Both the position numbers and the translations under genes were made by a program. From positions 248,001 through 312,000 of the forward strand of contig JAWWNJ010000143.1 of assembly GCA_037176885.1 (NCBI GenBank): a stretch of DNA of 64,000 nt, written 5' to 3'. Positions 2,148 to 15,424 of this stretch are shown piece by piece (position 1 is the stretch's first letter; every line of letters starts with the position of its first letter). The notes under the pieces are model-generated. The model saw nothing but the letters and a program-made list of their open reading frames with translations. It had not been told where the DNA came from and did no database searches. The DNA is from Favolaschia claudopus. Lineage: Eukaryota > Basidiomycota > Agaricomycetes > Agaricales > Mycenaceae.

Positions 2148-2230
2148 ATGGCGGACGAGCCAGTTCTCCCATTTTTTCTCCCTTGCAATATGGCGCAAAC
2201 TATTAATGTTCCTGACGACGACCTGGTTTG
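2148..2230 (+). pseudogene. 5' part of a small host ORF split by the LTR element
   Basis: An ATG at 2148 opens a frame that runs up to the insertion point. If the element and one copy of the GTTTG target duplication are removed, the frame continues through 14957-15158 to a TAG, 94 codons in all. The tail is Pro/Ser-rich (PFPPGDPLRSSSS). I recognise no family. The gene may have had introns, because GTTTGTTTCAG at the junction resembles a 3' splice site. It may also be a chance ORF. Confidence 0.35.
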
Positions 2231-2720
2231 TGTAAGGCCTAAGCTTATAACCCCAGGGACTATAACAATTTTACTTACCATGATATCCTTTTTTACGACG
2301 TATCTTGTACTTTTAGTAAAATGCGCGCTGTCATCGTCACTATGTGACAATGACAGCCTGATCGTGTGAATTCATTCTTCTTTTTACCCAAAACAGTCAC
2401 CTACTCAGCCTCTTAAAGCGCCGTCGAGTAACTCCGGGCTTTAGGGAGGCACAGGTGTGTTGAAGGAACTGAATAATCATTGAAGGTAAGCAGCCTTATC
2501 TTCTCTAAATACTAACGGCTGCTAGTTACTCCTTATCTGTGCCCATCTCGACAATCTCTTCTTGAAACTTTCGAAAGAGATCCCTTTAGTACAGTTTATA
2601 GCGTGAATATTCGCCTGTAAACTGTACCTTCAATAAATTGGACCGTCTTTGGGTCTATACCACAAAACTCGACTCCTGCCGCTGGTCTGACTGAAACCCA
2701 TCAGCGAGCCACGTCTCGCA
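2231..2720 (+). repeat. 5' LTR (490 bp)
   Basis: Starts TGTAAGGCCT and ends CACGTCTCGCA. It holds an intron-like segment (2486-2525), a perfect 9 bp inverted repeat TACAGTTTA/TAAACTGTA (2590-2598 and 2618-2626, 19 nt loop) and an AATAAA hexamer at 2632-2637. The hexamer is placed where a polyadenylation signal would be expected. The identical copy is at 14462-14951. Confidence 0.95.
2486..2525 (+). other. Candidate 40 nt spliceosomal intron inside the LTR
   Basis: GTAAGC donor, a consensus TACTAAC branch site and a TAG acceptor lie within 40 nt. This matches the short introns of neighbouring genes. The same segment sits at 14717-14756 in the 3' LTR. If it lies downstream of the transcription start, the leader of the genomic RNA could be spliced. 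Whether it is used cannot be told from sequence. Confidence 0.45.
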
Positions 2721-2723
2721 AAG

Positions 2724-2741
2724 TGGACACATTGGGAACTT
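2724..2741 (+). other. Probable primer binding site
   Basis: TGGACACATTGGGAACTT begins 3 nt after the 5' LTR and starts with the TGG expected opposite a tRNA CCA end. The second gypsy element has a related sequence, TGGGACAACCCAGGGAACTT, just after its probable LTR near 59679. I cannot name the primer tRNA. Confidence 0.4.
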
Positions 2742-3186
2742 CAGTCTGGCTGATCAGCGCAGACCTACCTCGTCCCAAGGCTCTCGTGGTCGAGGATCTC
2801 ACTCCCGATTACCGTCGATCTCGCGCAAAAACCCGAGTAGAGACGCTCGACCTAAAGAGCCGTCAGCGGGAGGAATTCCGGCAACGGATCAAGATCCCGC
2901 TCCTCCGACTTCCCGTTCCGCTACTCGTTCCGCTTCTCCGATCAAACACTCTTCTGGTTTCTGGACGCCTAGCGGACGTTCTCCATATACGAGAGTCATC
3001 GACGTGGCTCTTACTCCTCTTGGTCTCCGACGCGTAGACACTCGACAAGGAGTTAGCGCTCCTGCATCTCCAAAGAAGCTCGTGCAAAACTCAGAGTCGG
3101 ATTTGGGATCGAGACCTCTATTTCCTTCGAAAACTCCAGACCCAGAACTTCTTCTTTCAGACATCTCCTTACAATCAGGACTTCTG

Positions 3187-5868
3187 ATGTCTTCACCTGT
3201 TAAACCGTCCCAAACTGCTGGCCCATCTGTGTCTTCAGCCTCGCAGGCTTACGAGGAAGCGTCTTTTCATAGTTCCATGGAAGAGACTAGAGCCAGAGCT
3301 GCGAGAGAGATTGAGGAGTTGATGGCCAGTTACAGCAGCGTGCCGGTTGGAGGACTTTCGTTGGAACAAAAGTGTTTTGAAATTCTCAATAAGAAGGAAT
3401 TGACGCTTACCGACGTCTTGGATCGCGGAACTTTCACGGGTCCTCCTAGCGTACAGAGAGTCAATGAGCGGTTCGGGGTAATATACGTGTATCAGACGCA
3501 GATAGAACTGATCATTCGGGATCTCCAAACTACGATTCTGAACGCTTCGGCATTGGTTCCTGGACGTACCTCATTCTTCAAGATTGACCCACATCGTGCG
3601 CTTATGTCGAATTTAAGGGGGTCGAATTCATTGGGCGACTTGCAAGCCGCTTGGGCAGCTCTCAGAAGCAGAGTGGACTTAGGTCAACGTACCTTGCTCA
3701 AGTATTATTCGGAATGCACGCCTCAAATGGAGTCCAGTATACCTTTATCCCCTACTTCGACGGCGGAAGAAATATACACCAACTTTCCCAAGACTACTAA
3801 TCCAAGCGTAAGCTTGAATTACCTTTATGAACGGGTCCCACACATGGCAAAAATCTGGCCGGCTGAATATCGTCCTCCTGGGAATAAGATAGGAGACGTT
3901 ACACTAGTTCCTAAGGATCTCAGTGAAGCCTTTCCCCCGCGATCTCCTGAAGAGCGTCCTTCCACTTTCTTCTACACGGAGGACGGACAACGTAGGGAGT
4001 TTGTTCCCGCGGAGGGTGCCAGTTTTGGCAATGCTGGTTTCGTGTTGCCGCCTCCTGAACCTAAAGGCAAAGGGAAAGCTGTTGAAATAGCGGACGAATC
4101 CGAAGAACAAATCGTATTACCTAGAAGATCAATTTCGAAGGAAATCCCTAAGTTTCCTGGATCCTATGAGCCGTCCCACTTCAATCTAGCCAACGTTAAG
4201 ACGGGATTGCTGAGCTCAGGTGTACAGCTCAAGGATGCGTCGAATTTCTTCCTGCCAAACTACTCCAGCAAACCGTTCCCTGGGTCTACCGTACCCGAGT
4301 CGTATTTTCCTAACCCTTTGAAAGGAATGGCTACGGGTTCAGCATACAACTTTCCTGCTGATTCCATAAGTCAGGCCGTAAGAGGACCGCGCTTCGCACC
4401 TGTTCCTACGAATACCGTCCGCTACGATTTGCCAGGGACAGGCGGCGGTCCGAATCTCCCTGCGGATCCAACGGGTCAAGACGACCCTCCCCAAAGAGAT
4501 AGGGATCCGGTGGATGATCGTCCGCGCAATGAAGGAGCTGCCCCACAAGGGGGTGGAGGTCCGCCAGACGATGATGATGATGGAGATGATGGAAACGGTC
4601 CGAACAACGGACGCCGCGAACATCCTCCTCGTCGGCCAAATCGTAACGGGCCACCACCGGGAAACGGTAACGGTGGTAATCCCTTCTTCCCTATGCCTCC
4701 AGCTCCTCCTCCTGGAGGAGGAGGTGGTGGCGGAGGCGGAGACGGAAATGGAGGCGGGGGATACTTTGACACCAGGTTCCCTTACATCGCTCCTGGGGCT
4801 CCCTACGGTACCTTAGTCCCGACTATAGAACCTAAGTTGAAATTCGAATCCATACCTGAATGGGATGGTAATTGGGAGACGGCCATGGACTATTTCTGGG
4901 ATGTGAGTCAAGTCGCCATGTTGATGGGTTGGCTCCCCAAGGCATTGGGATACTGGTTGCCGTCTAGATTGAAGAAAGGATCCCCTGTGCACATGTGGTT
5001 TTCAACTCTTCCGTCCATGAGACAAGCTGCGATGCGAGAGCATTACCTTGTTTACCTCCAAGAAATCAAGGACCGATACCTCGGACGAAAATGGCAGCTT
5101 CAGAAGAATATTGAGTTCGAGAACCATGCGTTTAGACAGAAAGGTCACGAACATGAGACTCCGCAAATGTTTTTCGGCAGGCGAGTCCGAGCGGTCAGAA
5201 TGCTCGCCAACTCGGATGACGGAGGACCGCTGGAAGTTCAGCTAGTGATGCGCAAGGCACCTCTTCGATGGAGTTCGATTCTTATTCTCGAGAATATTTC
5301 GTCGACGGAGGAACTGTTTGACAAAATCAATGAGCATGATGAAGCTCTGGTTGATGCTGCCAAGTCCACCCCTTCTGAAATTGTCACACCGCACAATCTC
5401 GAATCTCTTCTTCGCCGGATGGGATATCGTCCTCTTCCACCATCGCGCTTTAACCGACGTACGGTGAATTCAACGGAGCAGGAAATTAGCAAAGAGGAGA
5501 ACAGCTCGCCTGAAATCGTGGAGAACGAAGTTTCCGGAGGAGATGAAGGAGGGGTAGAGACATTACGAGTTGCCTTTCAGACGTTAAAAAGGAGGCAGCG
5601 TCCTCCTCCTAAAGGAGGGTATCCGTTTGCAAAAAATGATCATGTTACCACCAAAATGGGTAGACTCCCACCTTCTCCTTGCAAAGTGTGCGGGAGTAAC
5701 AACCACTGGGATCGTGAATGTCCAGATTGGAACATATATCTGGAAAGACAGAATCGTTCAGCTAACGCGGTATCATCTTTGGACGCACCTGCAGAGGAAT
5801 CGGAGATGATGTATCATAGTGCGTACAGCGTACTTCTTGATGATCGTCTTGCGCAAGAGGCTTTTTGA
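3187..5868 (+). CDS. gag: Gag polyprotein of the chromovirus
   Basis: The first ATG of the leader (3187) gives 893 residues. The frame is open without a stop back to 2695, and that stretch looks coding (Ser/Arg/Pro-rich), so a non-AUG or spliced start is possible. In order: a Ser/Thr-rich N-terminus, a flexible Pro/Gly/Asp/Asn-rich linker with Gly runs at about residues 415-528, a helical capsid-like region at about 548-728, and one CCHC zinc knuckle (C-x2-C-x4-H-x4-C, CKVCGSNNHWDREC) near residue 831. It packages the RNA and forms the particle. The frame ends at a TGA that overlaps the protease frame shifted by -1. Confidence 0.85.
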   Translation: MSSPVKPSQTAGPSVSSASQAYEEASFHSSMEETRARAAREIEELMASYSSVPVGGLSLEQKCFEILNKKELTLTDVLDRGTFTGPPSVQRVNERFGVIYVYQTQIELIIRDLQTTILNASALVPGRTSFFKIDPHRALMSNLRGSNSLGDLQAAWAALRSRVDLGQRTLLKYYSECTPQMESSIPLSPTSTAEEIYTNFPKTTNPSVSLNYLYERVPHMAKIWPAEYRPPGNKIGDVTLVPKDLSEAFPPRSPEERPSTFFYTEDGQRREFVPAEGASFGNAGFVLPPPEPKGKGKAVEIADESEEQIVLPRRSISKEIPKFPGSYEPSHFNLANVKTGLLSSGVQLKDASNFFLPNYSSKPFPGSTVPESYFPNPLKGMATGSAYNFPADSISQAVRGPRFAPVPTNTVRYDLPGTGGGPNLPADPTGQDDPPQRDRDPVDDRPRNEGAAPQGGGGPPDDDDDGDDGNGPNNGRREHPPRRPNRNGPPPGNGNGGNPFFPMPPAPPPGGGGGGGGGDGNGGGGYFDTRFPYIAPGAPYGTLVPTIEPKLKFESIPEWDGNWETAMDYFWDVSQVAMLMGWLPKALGYWLPSRLKKGSPVHMWFSTLPSMRQAAMREHYLVYLQEIKDRYLGRKWQLQKNIEFENHAFRQKGHEHETPQMFFGRRVRAVRMLANSDDGGPLEVQLVMRKAPLRWSSILILENISSTEELFDKINEHDEALVDAAKSTPSEIVTPHNLESLLRRMGYRPLPPSRFNRRTVNSTEQEISKEENSSPEIVENEVSGGDEGGVETLRVAFQTLKRRQRPPPKGGYPFAKNDHVTTKMGRLPPSPCKVCGSNNHWDRECPDWNIYLERQNRSANAVSSLDAPAEESEMMYHSAYSVLLDDRLAQEAF
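5861..5868 (+). other. Candidate -1 frameshift site at the gag stop
   Basis: Gag ends GCT TTT TGA. Because five T's precede the GA, the last Phe tRNA can re-pair with TTT one base upstream and continue TTG AAT in the protease frame. The protease frame is closed until 5843, so the overlap is only about 25 nt and sits exactly on this site. The second gypsy element has the same arrangement at 62255-62264. Confidence 0.5.
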
Positions 5869-7058
5869 ATTCGGCCGTGGGGAGCACGTCTCTACAAGAC
5901 GGATTCTCCCCTCGTAAGCCCAACCTGGATAAGAATAACGTCAATGGTATAATCGATTCGGACGCCTCGCGAGATAGGGGGACCGCGGATCCTCCTCTAA
6001 AAATTCGTTCCGCTAGAAAAGTTGAAATGTTGGAAGTGGAAGACGAACATTGGGAGCAACAAGCGAAGATGCCTAAAGCGCGTTTCGGGTTGTTGATCGA
6101 AGACCCTGGGGAGGACAATAGTTTCGAGGAGAACCCGATCGGAGAATCCCAAGCAGACTGTCGTAAGGAAGTCAGATTAGGACAGGTTGAGCAGACGAGT
6201 CCTGTCGCAGAAGCCGACTACGCAACAGAAGAACCTCCCCCGTTACCGGATTCAACGCCTTTACGGCTCTCACCAAAAAGGAGTCCGAAGCCGGGAGATT
6301 CAGCTATAGGAGTATCAGTTCTGGCTGTAAAAGGATGGGTAGGAACTTTGGACCAACCTCAAGTGGATCTGCGTCTGGATTCTGGCGCAGATATTTCGCT
6401 GATTTCGGAGGATTTTTATAACAGTCTGATTCATAAGCCTCCCATTCGACGTGGTCGACCGATGAGCTTAGCTCAGCTTACCGACAAATCCACTCGAGTC
6501 CAAGGGTATGTGAAATTGAAACTCTTCATATCCACTGTGGAACAGGATCTGTTGGAAACGGAAGTAGAGTGTTACGTGGTCAAAGGGATGAGCGTACCAA
6601 TGCTGCTCGGAGAGGACTATCAGCTGGGCTACGAATTACATGTCGCACGAAACGTGGAATCCGGGACGAAAGTCTTCTTTGGCACAGGCAGGCACGAAGT
6701 TACTGCAACCGGGATAGGATCCTTCCCTGGGAGAGCAGAAGCTCAGTCATTAGCGTCTAACCTGACCTTGCACGCTAAAACGGTGTCAATCGCGAAAGCT
6801 CACCGGAGAGAAAAAGCGCGCAGGCATAGACGGAAAGCTAGAAACGGAGCAGATCAAAAAATCATTCGCGCTGCTGAAGACTACCGGATCAGGGCTAACG
6901 AGACAAAGCTAATTCGAGTAGAGGGGGACTTCAGTGAAGACAAGGAATGGGTGGTAGAACGTACTCTTCTCGCCAATTCAGAGCTGTGCCCAACACTCTC
7001 ATTTCAGCTCGAGACCCACGCGTTTCTGTTAGCAACACGAGCAATTCTCCTCGCATGA
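5865..7058 (+). CDS. Retropepsin-type aspartic protease region
   Basis: This frame is entered from gag by a -1 shift and has no ATG near its start, so it is probably read only as a fusion. About 397 codons. The active-site motif LRLDSGADISLIS lies about 170 codons in, followed by a typical retropepsin continuation (MLLGEDYQLGYELHV). The last ~40 codons overlap the pol frame. The C-terminal segment with DKEWVVERTLL resembles the linker that in related elements leads straight into RT. Confidence 0.8.
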   Translation: MNSAVGSTSLQDGFSPRKPNLDKNNVNGIIDSDASRDRGTADPPLKIRSARKVEMLEVEDEHWEQQAKMPKARFGLLIEDPGEDNSFEENPIGESQADCRKEVRLGQVEQTSPVAEADYATEEPPPLPDSTPLRLSPKRSPKPGDSAIGVSVLAVKGWVGTLDQPQVDLRLDSGADISLISEDFYNSLIHKPPIRRGRPMSLAQLTDKSTRVQGYVKLKLFISTVEQDLLETEVECYVVKGMSVPMLLGEDYQLGYELHVARNVESGTKVFFGTGRHEVTATGIGSFPGRAEAQSLASNLTLHAKTVSIAKAHRREKARRHRRKARNGADQKIIRAAEDYRIRANETKLIRVEGDFSEDKEWVVERTLLANSELCPTLSFQLETHAFLLATRAILLA

Positions 7059-10000
7059 TCCGTAAAGGGGAGATCATAGGAATGCTTCAAGATCCGCAGG
7101 AGTTTTTCGATTCACCCAAGACTGAGAAGGACCTACAGCTCTTTGTCAAGCACGCCTCTTTAGTTTCGTCGCTAATTCAAGCGAACCTGGACTCTGGCAA
7201 GAACGAGGTCAAGACGTCGAATCTAAGATCTAGCAATGACAGACCTTTGGATCCCATTATCCGCACCGACTTTGGGTCTGGAGTATCGCCAGAAGAAGAG
7301 AATAGGAAAAGAGGAGTGCACGTGCGAGATCTCAATGGAAACTTGGCTTCACCGATATTCCCTATTCAGGAAGAAACCGAAAGCGAAAACGATGATCAAG
7401 GTCCCAAGACGGCAGCTTTCCCTGACAATACGGAGTACCCTTCGTCAAAAATGGAGGAACTTCTGGATGTCGGCTCCTTACCTGAGAGCTTAAGACCTAA
7501 AGCTTGGGATATGCTCAGACGCAGGGTCAAAGCATTCGGGTTTGATGGACGGCTAGGACATTTGGATGCTCAAGCTAAAATCAGGGTCAAAGAGAATGTC
7601 GACCCCATTGCAGTCCCAATGTACGGCAGCTCACCGCAAAAGAGAGAGGTCATAGACGCACAACTTGACAAATGGTTCCAACAGGGCGTGATTGAGCCCT
7701 CCATTAGCCCTTGGAGCGCGCCCGTGGTTATTGCTTATCGCAACGGCAAGCCGCGATTTTGCGTCGACTATTGCAAATTGAATGCTGTGACCATTGCTGA
7801 TGAATTCCCCATACCTCGTCAAACCGAAATCTTGTCATCATTGTCGGGTGCTCAAGTACTATCATCCCTTGATGCTCTGGCGGGTTTTAATCAGTTGGAG
7901 ATAGCCCCAGATGATGTGGAAAAAACAGCTTTTCGGACCCATAGAGGATTAGCGCAGTTTCGTCGAATGCCGTTTGGTCTAAGGAATGGGCCGCCTATTT
8001 TTCAGCGGATTATGCAAGGGATCTTGGCGCCTTACCTATGGCTATTCTGTCTAGTGTATATCGATGACATCGTGGTATATTCGAAGACTTACGAGGACCA
8101 CATAGAGCACTTGGACAAAGTGCTAGGAGCAATTGAGAAAGCGGGGGTGACCTTATCTCCGAACAAATGTCACCTCTTCTACTCGTCAATATTGCTGCTT
8201 GGCCATAAAGTGTCCAGGTTGGGGTTGTCGACGCACGCGGAAAAGGTTCAAGCCATTATGGAATTGGAACGTCCGCGGAAACTTTCGCAACTGCAGGGTT
8301 TTCTAGGAATGATTGTCTATTTTTCATCGTTCATCCCGTTCTACGCGAGTATCTGCGCACCATTGTTCAAACTCCTTAGGAAAGGTGCGAAGTGGTGCTG
8401 GGGAGACGATGAGGAATACGCGTTCAGAGCTGCGAAAGAAGCTCTTCAGTCAGCTCCTCTGCTAGGGCATCCAATTGAAGGCTTACCTTATCGTCTGTAT
8501 ACCGACGCCTCGGACGAAGCAGCGGGAGCAGCCTTGCAACAAGTCCAGCCGATACGGGTCGGTGACTTGAAAGGCACGAAGGCATATGAAAAACTTGAAG
8601 CAGCTTTCTCAGCGGGATTACCTCCTCCGAAATTGGTGACAAAGATATCGTCGAAGACCAACGACACGGACTACGTAGACTCTTGGGGGGCATCATTGGA
8701 TGACTCCGTGGTTCACGTGGAAAGAGTAATTGGGTACTGGTCGCGATCTTTCAAGGGCGCGGAGACGCGCTACTCGACGACCGAGCGAGAAGCTTTGGCA
8801 GCCAAGGAGAGCCTGATCAAATTTCAGCCCTTCGTGGAGGGAGAAAAGATCTTGCTGGTTACGGATCACTCAGCATTACAGTGGGCTAGGACCTATGAGA
8901 ACGCAAACAGGAGATTAGCCGCATGGGGGGCTGTATTTTCAGCCTACGCACCGGGGTTGGAAATCATTCACCGTCCAGGTCGCGTACATTCAAACGTGGA
9001 CCCTCTCAGTCGTCTGCCGCGAGCTCCGCCTGTCCATGTTTCTCCGATATCGGAAGGATCCAAACCTATTCAGATGTCAAACGATTTGAAGGACGCCCAA
9101 GAATCTTGGACGGACCGGACTCCTGCGGAAAGAGCGACATTTTTCGCGTGGACTTTGGACGACGCGCTGGAAGGTAGAGCGAGTTCTTTCGCCATCACTC
9201 GAAGTCAAGGCAGAGTGACGGATGGAGCTCCTAAAGACCTACCGCGATCAGATGAAGACAAACGTCGCAAAGCCGCTCCCTGCTCGGATTATGAAGAGGA
9301 ACCGAGACCTCCTTTGCCTGCTTCGCAACTCATGGACATCTCTGCTCCTTTGGCAATACCGAGCATCGAGACTGGGGGGGGTAAAGCGGATATTCAGGCA
9401 GAACTTCGTCAAAATAAAGCGGATATTCACGCAGATCTTCGTCAAAAGCCAGCGTTCGTTCAGTCTGAGCTAGGGAACGAAGAGGAGCTAGATACCTTGG
9501 AACCGTCATTGGAGTACTGGGGGGCTCTAAATCCTCCTCCTAACATCAATATCGGGATAAGCGAAGAACTGAGGCAATCATGGATACGGGCTTACAATGA
9601 AGATCTTGAATTTCGTGCAATTATGAAGCAGGAAGATGTCGTCAGAGGAACGTGGAAACCAGGACAGCGATTCTTCAAGTCGAAAGACGGATTGCTACTC
9701 TTCAGGGATGCGGACTATCATCCACGTCTGTGTGTCCCTAAGTCAAAAAGAAGAGAAGTAATTATAGAAGCTCACGAATCACCGGCGCAATCTCCTCATA
9801 CAAGCCCCGAACGTTTATGGGACAAGCTTAGTTCTAAGTTTTATTGGAGGAGAATGAAGCTGGATATTGAAGATTTCGTGTTGTCGTGCGACATCTGCCA
9901 GAAGATCAAATCAAGAAACTTCACAAGATTCGGATTCCTTACGCCTAATCCCATTCCATCGCGCCCTTATGAATCGATCTCGTTGGACTTGATTGTGAAT

Positions 10001-11077
10001 TTGCCTTGGTCCGAGGAGTATAACGCCATTCTCGTCGTCGTCGACAGGCTCAGCAAACACGCCACTTTCATACCTACAACTTCTGGACTCACGGCTCAAG
10101 GTTTCGCGGAGTTATTTGTAGAGCACATCGTGTCACGATTCGGATTGCCAGACAGCATCATCGCGGACCGTGACCCTCGCTGGACTTCAGACTTTTGGTC
10201 CGCGGTGACTGTAGCGTTGGGAACCAAAATGTCTCTGTCCTCATCACACCACCCTCAACACGATGGCCAAACGGAAAACTTAAATCGACAACTGGAGACG
10301 ATGTTGAGGGCTTTCGTAGCGAAGGATCGGTCAGATTGGAAACGGTGGCTGAAGCTGCTGGAATTCGCATATAATAGCAACATGCACTCATCTATCGGCA
10401 CTACCCCTTTCTTCCTGTTATACGGATTCGAGCCCAAAACCCCTCTAGACTTTCTGCTTCCAGGAGAGCCAGGATCAGCTGCAAGCTACGGCATGGCTAA
10501 GGGCACGAGTGCTTACTTGGAACAGTTAAGGGTGGCCAGGGAGAACGCGCGTCTGGCGATTGCGCGGGCCCAGCAGGAACAATTGACCTACTACAATCGA
10601 GGTCGACGTGACGTCCCGGAATTCAAGGTCGGATCACGCGTCTTGATAAATCCTCACTCGTTGGAGTGGGTTGACGCCAAGGGCGCAGGTGCTAAACTGG
10701 TCCAGCGTTGGATAGGTCCATTCGAGATTATACAAAGAATCAATCCCAGGACTTACCGTTTGAGACTCGACGATCGTTACCCCGGATATCCCATCTTCAA
10801 TCTGGATCATTTGAAGCCATACCGAGTGAGCCCGTCTGAATGGGAACCGAGGACGACAATGACCGACACCAGAGAGGACAAATTCGTGTCGGAAGAATAT
10901 GAAGTTGACAAGATTGTTGGAAAGCGGTACGACAAGTCCAGAAAGCAGACTATGTGGCTGGTGAGATGGAAGAGCTACGGTCCCGAGCACGACACCTGGC
11001 AAAGCCGGAAAGATCTTCGCAACGCGCCCGAGATGGTGAGGGCGTTTGAGAAGGAATCGGCAAAGTCACGTAAATGA
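6947..11077 (+). CDS. pol: Pol: reverse transcriptase, RNase H, integrase, chromodomain
   Basis: 1,376 codons from ATG 6947; the frame is open from 6938 and lies -1 to the protease. RT begins near residue 220 and has LVYIDDIVVYSKT with the YIDD active site near residue 370. RNase H follows (YTDAS near 518, later TDHSALQWA) with an unusual ~70-residue insertion after the first strand. The integrase has an HHCC finger (H/H at ~941-949, CDIC at ~980) and D, D, E near residues 1013, 1072 and 1108 (SLDLIV, IIADRD, GQTENLN). A GPF/Y-like module (IGPFEI, ~1255) and a chromodomain (~1314-1366, YEVDKIVGKRYD...WLVRWKSYG) complete it. All catalytic residues that I can check are present. Confidence 0.95.
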   Translation: MGGRTYSSRQFRAVPNTLISARDPRVSVSNTSNSPRMIRKGEIIGMLQDPQEFFDSPKTEKDLQLFVKHASLVSSLIQANLDSGKNEVKTSNLRSSNDRPLDPIIRTDFGSGVSPEEENRKRGVHVRDLNGNLASPIFPIQEETESENDDQGPKTAAFPDNTEYPSSKMEELLDVGSLPESLRPKAWDMLRRRVKAFGFDGRLGHLDAQAKIRVKENVDPIAVPMYGSSPQKREVIDAQLDKWFQQGVIEPSISPWSAPVVIAYRNGKPRFCVDYCKLNAVTIADEFPIPRQTEILSSLSGAQVLSSLDALAGFNQLEIAPDDVEKTAFRTHRGLAQFRRMPFGLRNGPPIFQRIMQGILAPYLWLFCLVYIDDIVVYSKTYEDHIEHLDKVLGAIEKAGVTLSPNKCHLFYSSILLLGHKVSRLGLSTHAEKVQAIMELERPRKLSQLQGFLGMIVYFSSFIPFYASICAPLFKLLRKGAKWCWGDDEEYAFRAAKEALQSAPLLGHPIEGLPYRLYTDASDEAAGAALQQVQPIRVGDLKGTKAYEKLEAAFSAGLPPPKLVTKISSKTNDTDYVDSWGASLDDSVVHVERVIGYWSRSFKGAETRYSTTEREALAAKESLIKFQPFVEGEKILLVTDHSALQWARTYENANRRLAAWGAVFSAYAPGLEIIHRPGRVHSNVDPLSRLPRAPPVHVSPISEGSKPIQMSNDLKDAQESWTDRTPAERATFFAWTLDDALEGRASSFAITRSQGRVTDGAPKDLPRSDEDKRRKAAPCSDYEEEPRPPLPASQLMDISAPLAIPSIETGGGKADIQAELRQNKADIHADLRQKPAFVQSELGNEEELDTLEPSLEYWGALNPPPNINIGISEELRQSWIRAYNEDLEFRAIMKQEDVVRGTWKPGQRFFKSKDGLLLFRDADYHPRLCVPKSKRREVIIEAHESPAQSPHTSPERLWDKLSSKFYWRRMKLDIEDFVLSCDICQKIKSRNFTRFGFLTPNPIPSRPYESISLDLIVNLPWSEEYNAILVVVDRLSKHATFIPTTSGLTAQGFAELFVEHIVSRFGLPDSIIADRDPRWTSDFWSAVTVALGTKMSLSSSHHPQHDGQTENLNRQLETMLRAFVAKDRSDWKRWLKLLEFAYNSNMHSSIGTTPFFLLYGFEPKTPLDFLLPGEPGSAASYGMAKGTSAYLEQLRVARENARLAIARAQQEQLTYYNRGRRDVPEFKVGSRVLINPHSLEWVDAKGAGAKLVQRWIGPFEIIQRINPRTYRLRLDDRYPGYPIFNLDHLKPYRVSPSEWEPRTTMTDTREDKFVSEEYEVDKIVGKRYDKSRKQTMWLVRWKSYGPEHDTWQSRKDLRNAPEMVRAFEKESAKSRK
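9382..9447 (+). repeat. Two 33 bp tandem copies inside pol
   Basis: Copies at 9382-9414 and 9415-9447 encode KADIQAELRQN and KADIHADLRQK in the linker between RNase H and integrase. The length is a multiple of three, so the frame is kept. Confidence 0.8.
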
Positions 11078-11547
11078 TGGGAAGCTGTGCTGACTAGCCC
11101 GGGCCGGTCCCGCTCAGTTTCCCTCGTTTCCGTCTTCTTTCTCTCATGTCTAAGCTTTCATTCTCTCCTGGATCCTGGCGACTCCTGCTATTGGCCTCAA
11201 GCTCTCTGTTAATCAATTGCTCTCTCCACTTTCTGGCACTCTTTCCCTTGGCTACGCGTGGAACTGTCCATGTGAAGAATCTCATTCGACGTCTCTCTCA
11301 CGACCAACTCCTAGCTCTTATACTCCTGGTATCTCTACTCAATCTCTCTCACGCTCTCAATTCCTCCCTCTCTTTCTCTCTCTCACCTCTCCGTCCTTCC
11401 TCTGTTCATCTGTCCTCCTTCGGGCTCCGTTGTGTACATTGTTTCGAGGGTCTAAGCCGACTTGAATATTCGATCGGCTGAACCCCTTTGGCGAGCTCCA
11501 GCGAACTTGAATCTTTCGATTCGTTGTCTCGATAAACTCTGTGCATC
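11078..11547 (+). promoter_or_regulatory. Spacer upstream of the third ORF, with pyrimidine-rich tracts
   Basis: This 470 bp gap between pol and the third ORF contains long CT-rich runs (around 11340-11400), a feature of many fungal promoters. No protein is supported in it. It has several upstream ATGs, so the third ORF is unlikely to be translated by simple scanning from a long RNA. Its own promoter or a spliced RNA is more likely. This is inference. Confidence 0.3.
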
Positions 11548-14442
11548 ATGGACGATTTCCCGATCGACAAGGATAGCGATTACGCCGTACCTACTTGGGG
11601 TCTAGTTAATGGCATCACATTTGGATCTTTCCTTGCGTCCCCAGCTGCTATCATCCCTCAAGTGGTGGATTACTTCGATAAACCGCCTTTAGTCTTGCAC
11701 CCCAACACGCCACCTGAGCTCAAGAAGATCTTTGATTTCACTAAGAAGCCGATCTTGTACAATCCCACAGAGCATTGGCTTGGATGGTGCCCTCCTAGTG
11801 AGCTGATTCCTGCTCCTTTCTCGGAAGGGCTAGTTGATCCGCTCGCCTTCGCCTTCGCGTCCGGCTACACTCCGCTCAGCATGGAGTACACCGATATTCC
11901 GGGAGGTAATAGTGAAGCCTCGGACGATGAGCACACTCTTCGGGCTCCAGCTGGATACTCCATCGATGACGACTGGACTTCGCGAACCGTTTGGACTGGC
12001 GAGAAGCTTTATCGTTTATGCCATCACGTAGCTTCTCGCAGTCCCTGGTACTGCTACTATGGAGACCCCGAACGAGTGGGTAGTCTTCCTCCCGAACCGT
12101 CGTTTGTGGATTTATCGCTCCCGTGCTATTCGTTCGAGCGAGCGGCAGAAGTGGTTGACGACGCCAAGTCTTATATCATCTCTTGCCTCGGTTTCCTAAT
12201 CTGGTTTGATTCAATTGCCGACTTGTTCGCGTACGGGTTGGATGAAGAAGATACCGAGTACATCCGGAGTCTTCGCCTCAAAGATCGTCGCAAGATTGGG
12301 GTGATATACTACATGCCGCGCGACGTTCACGAGTCCAACTTCCTGCACCTCATAGCTCACAACGTACCTGTTCACTTCGCGTGGACGAGTGACATGAGTC
12401 GCTCGGAGCGCTTCTTCCGTCTGAGTCCCGAATTCTGGGGAGAGGCTAGAGCTTTGATTGAAAGAGACCCACGTGCTTATCTGGATTATTCCAACTTGCC
12501 CAGTTATCAACGATGGCGCGCACGTCTGGATGAATCTGACTGGTTCTTTCAATTTGCGCACGCGGGCCGTATGGGACAGCCTTTGACTTCCTTCAAACCA
12601 GGCGCGGACCACGGCATCGTCGACTTCACTCCGTTCGGATTACGCCTCTTGAGGAATGCTAACGAGATTCGCGCTATCTCGGAGCGCTTCAAAGTTTTCG
12701 AAAAGCGGTCGATGGATGGATCTCCCAACGTGATTCCCATCTACATCTACTTCCGACAGAACCCCAGGCAGCTGGACGAGCCGCCGATGGCTAGGGTTCA
12801 GCCGGAGATGCATAACCACGACCTCTCAACTTTCGCTCAGGAATACATCGCCGACAGCGAGATAGAGAAGTCTGTATTTTTCGAAAGAACCGTCATCGTC
12901 AAGGAAAGAGTCAAAAACGTTCACGCTCCGCGTGTCGATCGCTTCTTCAGTACCTACAGTGGGGCTCAGACCACTATGCGGGGTCCAGCGAGCGAGCCTC
13001 GTCGCGAACCCCCCGCCATTGACGAGCCACGAGCAGCCAAGAAGTCTAGATCGGAGGGAACTGAAGTGAAGCTTACGACTGAAGTGGGAGACCAACCTCT
13101 TTCTCGAGACTCCCTTTTGAATCGCATGGGAATTGAAACTCGCCGCATGGAGGATCATCGCAAACTCACGGAGCGCGTTCGCGCTAATGCGTCTTCAGTC
13201 TATACGTCCGAATGGGTGCACCGTATGGCGGAAGGCCTTTCGTCGTCAGGAGAACCTGCAGTTCCAGGCAGTGATACGCTTTCCGACGCCAGAAGCCTTG
13301 CAAGTCGCGGAGGAGAATCCAGAACCCTATTGGGCAATCATGAGATAGCTCCTCCTGGCGCGCCAGCTCAAATTCAAGACGTAGCCGTCGCGGATGTGCC
13401 TCAAATCTTCACTCCAGTAGGGCCTCCTCCCGCGCTTACAGAAATGGAAGCGCGTCAAGGATTGCTCGCGTGGGGCACTTCCGTCTTGGAAACCGATCCT
13501 CCTTATCCACCAATTGAAGGCCTTTCTGTCAACTTGGGATGGCTTACCAATTCGCGCCTAGCTTTCAAAGACCCTCGTTCTTACTGGCGTTTCAAGTTGT
13601 TGGCGGTCCGCAACCCGGGGATTGTAAACTTCGAGGAGCTGATGTTCTTAGCAATTCGTCATGGGATTTCTTTCGAGATATATGTCTTACGATCAGACGT
13701 TCGAAAGTTCAACGACGCTCCTATCCCATTCTTACAACAGAACACGCTATCCTCCATCTACCAGCCAGGCTACGTGGACGAGCCGCTCACTTGGAATAAA
13801 TCGGGAGTGACGGCTACTTACACGGACTATCTCTCTCGGCTCAATTTGCTCCTCTCCCGTCCGGAGTCCATTGCTTTCGTGCGAATGGGAGGCGTACTCC
13901 GATACATTGCCGAGCTCTACAATCGTGATATCGTGCAAAACTTCGCTAACGGTCCTAGCCTTCAAGTCACCCATTTCGACAAAGGCGAGACGAAGCTTTT
14001 CGACAACGATTTGAGCGAGTTCTACACTGCCGACAGCGTTTCTCCGAGCGAGATTGGCCTTCTAATCGGCAGGATTCCTGGTACTGATCAAGAATCGGAG
14101 ACTACCTTGTGGCCACCTCCCGAGATATTCGAGTCTTCTACTTGGGTCGTGCGAGGATATCTTTCAGCTCGCGCATTCAAGTTATTGGAGTCCGTCCGCA
14201 AAGAGATCTTCGGAGCAGTTCCCAGTCTTCGCTGGCGCAACAAAGGGGCTTGGAACCAATTCTTCCGCGCCCCTCGCTTCAATTCCACGCGGGCTAAGGA
14301 TAGAGACTTTGAGGGGATTGTTCCTTGCGCTTCGGACTTCGAGGAGGGTCAGCGTCTATTTGAGAAGTCTTACCCGGTGGATTGGCGCGACATGAACATT
14401 TCGGACATCGTTCTTCCGGAAGTATACGAACCTATCGCTTGA
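11548..14442 (+). CDS. Third ORF of the chromovirus: 964-residue protein of unknown function
   Basis: Uninterrupted ATG-to-stop frame between pol and the polypurine tract; its stop codon touches the tract. I recognise no retroviral, env, methyltransferase, helicase or nuclease motif. There is no signal peptide and no convincing membrane segment, which argues against an envelope protein. Two ordered-looking, Trp/Tyr/Phe-rich parts (about residues 1-450 and 625-964) flank a low-complexity charged segment. That segment includes a short basic patch AAKKSRSEG near residue 494 that could be a nuclear signal. Motifs that may help searches are TEHWLGWCPPSE and RSYWRFKLLAVRNPG. Because the element looks very young, the intact frame alone does not prove selection, but its length and composition look coding. 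Confidence 0.85.
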   Translation: MDDFPIDKDSDYAVPTWGLVNGITFGSFLASPAAIIPQVVDYFDKPPLVLHPNTPPELKKIFDFTKKPILYNPTEHWLGWCPPSELIPAPFSEGLVDPLAFAFASGYTPLSMEYTDIPGGNSEASDDEHTLRAPAGYSIDDDWTSRTVWTGEKLYRLCHHVASRSPWYCYYGDPERVGSLPPEPSFVDLSLPCYSFERAAEVVDDAKSYIISCLGFLIWFDSIADLFAYGLDEEDTEYIRSLRLKDRRKIGVIYYMPRDVHESNFLHLIAHNVPVHFAWTSDMSRSERFFRLSPEFWGEARALIERDPRAYLDYSNLPSYQRWRARLDESDWFFQFAHAGRMGQPLTSFKPGADHGIVDFTPFGLRLLRNANEIRAISERFKVFEKRSMDGSPNVIPIYIYFRQNPRQLDEPPMARVQPEMHNHDLSTFAQEYIADSEIEKSVFFERTVIVKERVKNVHAPRVDRFFSTYSGAQTTMRGPASEPRREPPAIDEPRAAKKSRSEGTEVKLTTEVGDQPLSRDSLLNRMGIETRRMEDHRKLTERVRANASSVYTSEWVHRMAEGLSSSGEPAVPGSDTLSDARSLASRGGESRTLLGNHEIAPPGAPAQIQDVAVADVPQIFTPVGPPPALTEMEARQGLLAWGTSVLETDPPYPPIEGLSVNLGWLTNSRLAFKDPRSYWRFKLLAVRNPGIVNFEELMFLAIRHGISFEIYVLRSDVRKFNDAPIPFLQQNTLSSIYQPGYVDEPLTWNKSGVTATYTDYLSRLNLLLSRPESIAFVRMGGVLRYIAELYNRDIVQNFANGPSLQVTHFDKGETKLFDNDLSEFYTADSVSPSEIGLLIGRIPGTDQESETTLWPPPEIFESSTWVVRGYLSARAFKLLESVRKEIFGAVPSLRWRNKGAWNQFFRAPRFNSTRAKDRDFEGIVPCASDFEEGQRLFEKSYPVDWRDMNISDIVLPEVYEPIA

Positions 14443-14459
14443 AAAAAGGATAGGGGGGC
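14441..14459 (+). other. Polypurine tract
   Basis: GAAAAAAGGATAGGGGGG lies directly upstream of the 3' LTR, with two intervening bases before TGTAAGG. This is the expected second-strand primer site. Confidence 0.8.
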
Positions 14460-14461
14460 TC

Positions 14462-14951
14462 TGTAAGGCCTAAGCTTATAACCCCAGGGACTATAACAAT
14501 TTTACTTACCATGATATCCTTTTTTACGACGTATCTTGTACTTTTAGTAAAATGCGCGCTGTCATCGTCACTATGTGACAATGACAGCCTGATCGTGTGA
14601 ATTCATTCTTCTTTTTACCCAAAACAGTCACCTACTCAGCCTCTTAAAGCGCCGTCGAGTAACTCCGGGCTTTAGGGAGGCACAGGTGTGTTGAAGGAAC
14701 TGAATAATCATTGAAGGTAAGCAGCCTTATCTTCTCTAAATACTAACGGCTGCTAGTTACTCCTTATCTGTGCCCATCTCGACAATCTCTTCTTGAAACT
14801 TTCGAAAGAGATCCCTTTAGTACAGTTTATAGCGTGAATATTCGCCTGTAAACTGTACCTTCAATAAATTGGACCGTCTTTGGGTCTATACCACAAAACT
14901 CGACTCCTGCCGCTGGTCTGACTGAAACCCATCAGCGAGCCACGTCTCGCA
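14462..14951 (+). repeat. 3' LTR (490 bp)
   Basis: By eye identical to 2231-2720 and followed by the target duplication GTTTG. Confidence 0.95.
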
Positions 14952-14956
14952 GTTTG

Positions 14957-15158: not shown

Positions 15159-15336
15159 GTCTCCGAAATTTCTGTCTGTAGATCAGGCACCGGAATCCTT
15201 CAACGACGCAAATCCTCCGTTTTTCACTCCATCTCTGCTCCATCTTGGGTTTCCCGATCTTTTCTCTTTTCCCCTTTCAATTGGTCTGTTACTCAGCTGC
15301 GAAATCTCGGCTACGAAATCTCAGTTTTTACGTTCT

Positions 15337-15424
15337 TATTTTTTACTGAAGGCTTTTACTGACGGCTCGATCTTGTTGCTTATTTTTTACTGAAGGCTTT
15401 TACTGACGGCTCGATCTTGTTGCT
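15337..15424 (+). repeat. Perfect 2 x 44 bp tandem duplication
   Basis: The 44-mer starting TATTTTTTACTGAAGG occurs at 15337-15380 and again at 15381-15424 without a difference. It lies in the upstream region of the F-box-like gene. Confidence 0.9.

Follow-up and report, generated by a model that had tools for sequence, protein, structure and literature searches.

A chromovirus with a third open reading frame

The window, a 64,000-nucleotide stretch of the genome of the mushroom Favolaschia claudopus (contig JAWWNJ010000143.1, positions 248,001 to 312,000), contains at 2231-14951 a young chromovirus, that is, a chromodomain Ty3/Gypsy long terminal repeat (LTR) retrotransposon, in which an uninterrupted open reading frame (ORF) of 964 codons, here called ORF3, occupies the space from pol to the polypurine tract. 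Both the frame and the class of element had been proposed in an earlier note made from the letters alone, and both stood. The pol gene matched the Pfam families RVT_1, RT_RNaseH, Integrase_H2C2, and Chromo above cut-off and in that order, giving reverse transcriptase (RT), RNase H, integrase, and chromodomain; the protease and rve matches fell below the Pfam cut-offs. LTR pairs and 5-bp target duplications were likewise found in 7 further elements, and the primer-binding-site-like block also lies beside the 5' LTR in 7 of the 7 other elements with a 5' LTR retrieved. The element is laid out as follows.

2226..2230, no strand: 5' target site duplication GTTTG, the same 5 bases as at 14952-14956
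2231..2720, + strand: 5' LTR, 490 bp, with no difference from 14462-14951
2724..2738, + strand: primer-binding-site-like block TGGACACATTGGGAA, adjoining the 5' LTR
3004..5868, + strand: gag open frame, 954 codons from GTG, with a zinc knuckle below the Pfam cut-off
5865..7058, + strand: protease frame, with a Pfam match below cut-off, apart from the RT frame in this copy
6947..11077, + strand: RT-RNase H-integrase-chromodomain frame, 1376 codons, from the open frame and Pfam
11548..14442, + strand: ORF3, 964 amino acids, ATG at 11548, TGA at 14440-14442, no interruption
14443..14461, + strand: polypurine tract AAAAAGGATAGGGGGGCTC, directly after the ORF3 stop and touching the 3' LTR
14462..14951, + strand: 3' LTR, 490 bp, identical to the 5' LTR
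14952..14956, no strand: 3' target site duplication GTTTG, repeating the 5' copy

ORF3 is a genuine element-encoded protein. The search for the same frame in other chromoviruses that the earlier note had advised found matches at 63 places in the F. claudopus genome, so that ORF3 is not a one-copy feature. Chromovirus pol lay on the same strand directly upstream in 26 of the 28 loci fetched first (the window being L001); in L008 and L021 it was not seen within the fetched piece. Among pol loci, of which the best 34 of 2475 candidates were scored, 30 had an ORF3 match just downstream by coordinates, and in 22 of the 22 elements compared for layout a GGGGG tract lay no more than about 30 bp past the ORF3 stop. 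The 21 aligned ORF3 proteins are encoded by 963-1053 codons, and their identity to the window copy ranges from 91% down to 18%. Outside Favolaschia, relatives were found in seven Mycena species (M. leptocephala, M. epipterygia, M. vitilis, M. latifolia, M. albidolilacea, M. vulgaris, and M. galericulata). In the M. galericulata gene model P0019, through which alone the Mycena genomic context is known, the chromodomain of pol runs on into ORF3, and the arrangement is therefore not limited to one genus. The origin as a captured host gene that the earlier note had offered found no support, the matches being uncharacterized Mycenaceae or unnamed proteins, for part of which an element context is known.

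Selection on ORF3 is strongly purifying. The ratio of nonsynonymous to synonymous divergence (dN/dS), computed by the Nei-Gojobori method (NG86), ranged over 0.033-0.071 among the 6 pairs (of 17) whose dS was finite, the synonymous sites of the other 11 being saturated; all finite dS values exceeded 1, which makes the ratios rough, yet they are far from 1. Amino acid change in ORF3 was about 1 to 4 times faster than in the integrase end of pol (18 pairs). Distances in ORF3 and pol were closely correlated (Mantel r = 0.93 over 22 elements, with 0 of 2000 permutations as high), which favors long co-inheritance over recent capture. Some exchange between families is nevertheless likely, since the window element is closer to L005 in pol (0.83 versus 0.73) and closer to L004 in ORF3 (0.60 versus 0.51). 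A clade of chromoviruses has probably carried ORF3 since before Favolaschia and Mycena split. Conservation across two mushroom genera with dN/dS near 0.04 implies that ORF3 does something the element needs, and the many copies, this ratio, and the lack of a described protein matching it in the libraries searched bear out the element-specific accessory protein that the earlier note had put forward as one option.

The structure model of the full protein, built from 21 sequences, had a mean predicted local distance difference test (pLDDT) score of 71.8 and comprised two folded parts separated by a disordered middle (residues 477-627, pLDDT below 50). The C-terminal domain modeled alone, from 29 sequences, reached a pLDDT of 89.4 and a predicted template modeling score of 0.88. 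Three parts are distinguished.

11548..12975, + strand: N-terminal globular part, residues 1-476, acidic, from the structure model and charge
12976..13431, + strand: disordered linker, residues 477-628, from the structure model
13432..14439, + strand: C-terminal globular domain, residues 629-964, to which PF28437 is assigned by inference

The ordered two-part layout anticipated from the sequence was thus recovered as two folded parts; the middle is disordered, and the basic patch that was also anticipated is weak in this copy, whose linker has a net charge of -2 and a single KKSR cluster. Clearly basic linkers occur in groups 2 and 3a and in L009-L011; those of L009-L011 also carry 32-43 arginine-serine (RS) or serine-arginine dipeptides and are in this respect splicing-factor-like, unlike that of the window copy.

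No Pfam family matched the window ORF3 at E <= 1, in agreement with the earlier statement that no domain could be recognized. The full model had no match in BFVD or PDB by Foldseek at E <= 0.001, and neither a known envelope nor a described retroelement protein was matched in these two libraries; the C-terminal domain model alone had no significant PDB match. The precomputed family PF28437 was present on 25 of 29 relatives (P0001, P0002, P0004-P0012, P0015-P0027, and P0029). It was absent from the N-terminal fragment P0003 and from the short proteins P0013, P0014, and P0028, and because of this distribution it probably corresponds to the C-terminal domain. In the 21-protein alignment 42 residues are invariant, of which 27 are glycine, proline, or aromatic; they do not form an obvious catalytic set, and judging from this composition a binding protein appears likelier than an enzyme.

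Twin hairpins in the ORF3 leader and in the LTR

The presence of twin hairpins ahead of ORF3 and in the LTR is a new finding of this analysis; in the open-access PubMed Central literature, which leaves subscription journals mostly outside, no listed paper dealing with tandem hairpins of LTR elements or with the family to which ORF3 belongs turned up. The hairpins of the window element are located as follows.

11426..11547, + strand: twin-hairpin RNA element, predicted three-way junction, directly upstream of ORF3
11455..11479, + strand: upstream hairpin 1, core AGCCGA-[C]-TTGAATATTCGA-TCGGCT (RNA AGCCGA-[C]-UUGA-AUAU-UCGA-UCGGCU)
11499..11526, + strand: upstream hairpin 2, core CAGCGAA-[C]-TTGAATCTTTCGA-TTCGTTG (RNA CAGCGAA-[C]-UUGAAUCUUUCGA-UUCGUUG)
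2554..2581, + strand: 5' LTR hairpin 1, ATCTCTT-[C]-TTGAAACTTTCGA-AAGAGAT (RNA AUCUCUU-[C]-UUGAAACUUUCGA-AAGAGAU), identical in the 3' LTR
2589..2627, + strand: 5' LTR hairpin 2, GTACAGTTTATAG-[C]-GTGAATATTCGC-CTGTAAACTGTAC (RNA GUACAGUUUAUAG-[C]-GUGA-AUAU-UCGC-CUGUAAACUGUAC)
14785..14812, + strand: 3' LTR hairpin 1, a copy of 5' LTR hairpin 1
14820..14858, + strand: 3' LTR hairpin 2, from the LTR fold and apex comparison

A third stem closes both upstream hairpins of the window into the predicted three-way junction. Two stable tandem hairpins were present in 25 of 27 upstream windows, and their apices were alike at 9 or more of 10 positions in 13 of the 27, compared with 8 of 1829 control windows. 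Placement is nearly fixed: in the 27 of 30 elements in which two hairpins were measured, the second ends 0-30 nucleotides (nt) before the ORF3 ATG, and the apices lie 40-48 nt apart in 26 of these 27. Over the 30 elements the folding z score of the 115 nt before the ATG averaged -3.01 and was below -2 in 22, and the sense fold was stabler than the antisense fold in 22 of 30 (p = 0.003). When the whole window element was scanned, the strongest folding z score was in the LTR (-7.0), with gag next; the strong gag fold, at 4631-4750 (z = -4.7), lies inside the glycine/proline-rich part. A long pyrimidine-rich run without AG, noted by eye at 11320-11446 ahead of the leader hairpins, could be a promoter-type CT tract or the acceptor region for a spliced ORF3 mRNA.

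Covariation was measured in two groups. For group 1 (7 sequences) 3 of 5 measures, and for the first hairpin of group 2 (11 sequences) 4 of 5 measures, lay beyond all 500 shuffles. In 19 listed hairpins, which were picked for folding from up to 28 in 7 elements (identical repeats and the L007 LTR being omitted), 184 of 185 stem cells pair, 19 of the 184 as G.U.

The hairpins before ORF3 resemble those in the LTR of the same element. In the window the two sets have the bulge and apex in common and unrelated outer stem sequences. L004 has a UUUU loop on 4 of 4 hairpins; L005 has GAAU or GCAU loops on the apical stems UCGA/UCGA, UUGA/UCAA, and ACGA/UCGU. In scripted scoring, the best match between an upstream and an LTR apex reached 9 or more of 10 within the same element in 26 of 31 cases, compared with 100 of 890 pairs between families; the 26 of 31 retains group 4, whose scoring windows reached into ORF3 (as, in part, did that of C46) and lowered the own-element count. 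Among representatives of 17 families, a grouping that is our own, none of 20,000 permutations reached the observed sum (p <= 5e-5). By eye and with a corrected start, C107 has GGAAGTCC/GGAGGTCC both upstream and in the LTR, and C60 has near matches. In C90b, AUUU loops occur upstream and once in the LTR (526-551); C25 has AUUU loops upstream, with none seen in the LTR; C71, whose start was misplaced, has no apex score. Since families sharing one genome use different apices, on which a host reader would impose a single one, the reader of the hairpins is probably encoded by the element itself. The apices by themselves do not decide between ORF3 and Gag.

Candidate readers of the hairpins

Elements without ORF3 bear on the choice. 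Four of the 34 scored pol loci lacked an ORF3 match: L029, in which the start of ORF3 is present and then interrupted; L030, in which pol is broken off and there is no ORF3; L031, which has no ORF3 and stops in pol; and L032, or C69. This last element (L032, 911-4081; L047) is an apparently complete young relative with gag-pol and 395-bp LTRs that are 100% identical, and it carries in the ORF3 slot an ORF of 1049 codons from the first ATG, with proline-rich stretches, whose end lies near both a GGGGGG tract and the LTR. This third ORF had no significant hmmsearch match to ORF3; the third-gene slot is thus filled, in different elements, by two or more proteins that have no detectable similarity to each other. 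The upstream and LTR apices of C69 match at best at 7 of 10 positions, which is the background level.

We tentatively propose, giving the idea somewhat less than an even chance, that ORF3 is a regulator of the element's own RNA, comparable to Rev of HIV or CERV of the Cer1 element, acting through family-specific hairpins in the LTR and before its own start. ORF3 would recognize paired hairpins, each with an outer stem, often a one-base 5' bulge, and a short apical stem and loop with a family-specific apex. Its targets would be the LTR copies, which would lie close to at least one end of the genomic RNA, and the pair just before the ORF3 start codon. By binding them ORF3 would govern whether the gag-pol RNA is exported, translated, or packaged, as well as its own expression. 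Neither the role of ORF3 as reader nor the effect of binding is more than conditional here. ORF3 is preferred over Gag because one pair of hairpins sits at the ORF3 start, because C69, with gag-pol but a different third ORF, is without matched pairs, and because CERV provides a precedent for an ORF in the env position acting on genomic RNA. Targeting, silencing suppression, and copy control, suggested earlier for ORF3, were guesses, and the RNA evidence points instead to handling of the element's own RNA. A broader scheme, which we regard as rather doubtful, is that the hairpin pairs with private apices form a family-specific RNA address code marking the LTR and the third-gene leader, and that ORF3, a protein of new fold, reads the code; ORF3 and its hairpins together would then be a self-contained regulatory unit by which the many families sharing the genome, 17 in our grouping, are held apart, each at about one copy. 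In either case a sharply defined hairpin feature predicts a partner, and the family apices supply ready-made cognate and noncognate pairs within one genome.

A number of observations weigh against the assignment to ORF3 or against a role of the hairpins as RNA. The N-terminal part of the window ORF3 has a net charge of -19, no RNA-binding domain was recognized in the protein, and the linker is RS-rich well beyond its composition only in L009-L011. Gag, too, is encoded by the element and may be what reads the hairpins. The negative evidence from C69 comes from one element (n = 1), whose LTR also has two neighboring hairpins, the apices of which are unlike. In the window an unaligned 120-nt scanning window over the ORF3 leader gave a z score of only -2.4, compared with -4.2 for the exact 115 nt. 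Antisense folds were also stabler than shuffled sequences, with a mean z score of -1.88 compared with -3.01 for the sense strand, so that the repeats may have a role at the DNA level. The remaining covariation measures were not unusual, both for group 1 (2 of 5, with 67 of 500 and 381 of 500 shuffles) and for group 2 (1 of 5, with 83 of 500). The group 1 covariance model convincingly found its own 7 seeds only and not groups 2-4, the best score outside the seeds being that of L018 (E = 0.066), and common descent of the hairpins across groups consequently rests on their architecture.

The alternative that comes nearest is that Gag reads the twin hairpins as family-specific packaging or dimerization signals that prevent cross-packaging, with ORF3 a separate accessory protein. 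It would suit an element-encoded protein with a knuckle-like motif (below the Pfam cut-off), LTR hairpins that would lie close to at least one end of the genomic RNA, and a genome populated by many diverged families. We consider it unlikely; it leaves unexplained why, in the 27 elements measured, a second pair of hairpins ends 0-30 nt ahead of the ORF3 ATG, and why C69, the one element with gag-pol and identical LTRs but another ORF, is without matched pairs. An improbable alternative is that host factors read the hairpins as cis elements for ORF3 expression, through internal initiation, the leader of a separate transcript, or splicing control, and that ORF3 has some other function. The fixed place at the start codon and the nearly constant geometry would follow from it, but families within one host differ in their apices, which agree with those in the respective LTR, where a host reader would favor a single apex, and intron-like LTR sequence at the ORF3 leader was found only in the window copy and L002.

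The demography of the copies bears on a further alternative. A genome search with the window LTR gave 15 places, namely its own 2, the LTR pairs of five other elements, and singles on C188, C282, and C110. The C7 LTR found its own pair, the C89 pair, and weaker matches to relatives, with many short matches outside the LTR part of the query; the C22 LTR found its own pair and diverged matches of 67-83% identity, five of them single (C147, C11, C90, C25, and C92), so that diverged relics exist. In the eight elements checked, LTR alignments showed 99.6-100% identity (what differed in C7 and C89 apparently belonging to the flank), the 5-bp duplications matched, and there was no close sibling copy. 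The nearest other ORF3 to the window copy is 91% identical, and measured ORF3 relatives differ at dS > 1. The diverged families thus survive as full-length copies of very recent date that have no close siblings, a puzzle in itself for which control of copy number, rapid loss, and recent re-entry are each a possible explanation.

On this further alternative, ORF3 is an envelope-like or structural protein with which the element passes from cell to cell or from one individual to another, for example at hyphal fusion, and the demography is that of repeated recent arrival. The place of ORF3 between pol and the polypurine tract, the nearly identical LTRs of the eight elements despite relatives at dS > 1, and the few single LTRs found are in keeping with this. 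The usual Kyte-Doolittle cut-off for a 19-residue mean is 1.6; the top mean ranged over 1.18-1.83 among the 21 aligned ORF3 proteins and was at least 1.6 in 8, and ORF3, to which the earlier note had denied a membrane anchor, may, on its hydropathy, have a membrane role. The peaks of those eight differ by family, however (about residue 173, 204-210, or 756-762), and that of the window copy (1.79 at residue 210) lies inside a confidently modeled helix of the folded N-terminal part. Foldseek gave no viral or PDB fold match (BFVD and PDB, where absence is not proof), strict copy control or rapid loss would yield the same demography, and this alternative is distinctly improbable. The least probable is that a transcription regulator encoded by the element, possibly ORF3 itself, binds the inverted repeats as DNA at two promoters, one in the LTR and one before ORF3: the repeats lie where those promoters are expected, and their apices are largely palindromic with stable antisense folds, but outer stems that differ in sequence within one element nevertheless pair (among hairpins selected because they pair), G.U accounts for 19 of the 184 paired cells, and the sense fold is the stabler in 22 of 30.

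Two observations concern the rest of the locus. In the window copy protease and RT-integrase are in different frames despite the identical LTRs, whereas one long frame was present in 28 of the 33 other scored pol loci (1,676-1,862 codons in 18 and 2,502-2,931 codons, presumably including a fused gag, in 10; shorter in 5). The split may reflect a broken copy with a perhaps nonfunctional pol, a real frameshift, or an assembly error. Just downstream of the element, the host flank contains a perfect 44-bp tandem duplication at 15335-15422.

Known systems of comparison

Reading of an element's own structured RNA by one of its proteins, as proposed for ORF3, is known from the coat-protein operators of RNA phages. 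It is known also from HIV, where Rev reads the Rev response element in its own genome (Rev as described in PMC10309623). ORF3 is far larger than Rev or the RNA-phage coat proteins and has an acidic N-terminal part, and binding by ORF3 is inferred only.

When an LTR element has a third ORF in the env position, that frame is often labeled env-like or left as unknown. Bdelloid rotifer LTR retrotransposons resemble the window element in having a non-env third ORF after pol, but their ORF3s are recognizable enzymes (GDSL lipase or DEDDy exonuclease) or transmembrane proteins (PMC5408684). Fungal and spikemoss Gypsy elements of lengths to more than 13 kb are described as having an "additional ORF of unknown function"; they are likened to the window element by this description, and the survey, which indicates the extra ORF in its structure figure, contains in the text available no selection, fold, or RNA analysis of it (PMC2864245).

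The closest likeness, again by description, is to CERV of Cer1, a Ty3/Gypsy element of Caenorhabditis elegans. CERV differs from ORF3 in being expressed from a spliced mRNA with some of the same exons as gag and in having a G domain that resembles G proteins, and in the sections available the account contains no tandem hairpin element ("stem-loop" has 0 occurrences) (PMC10309623). Like ORF3, CERV is a large ORF between pol and the 3' LTR, has several structured domains joined by flexible linkers, and is without obvious homology outside Caenorhabditis (PMC10309623). It occupies the env position, is unlike an envelope, and is required for export of the genomic RNA (PMC10309623).

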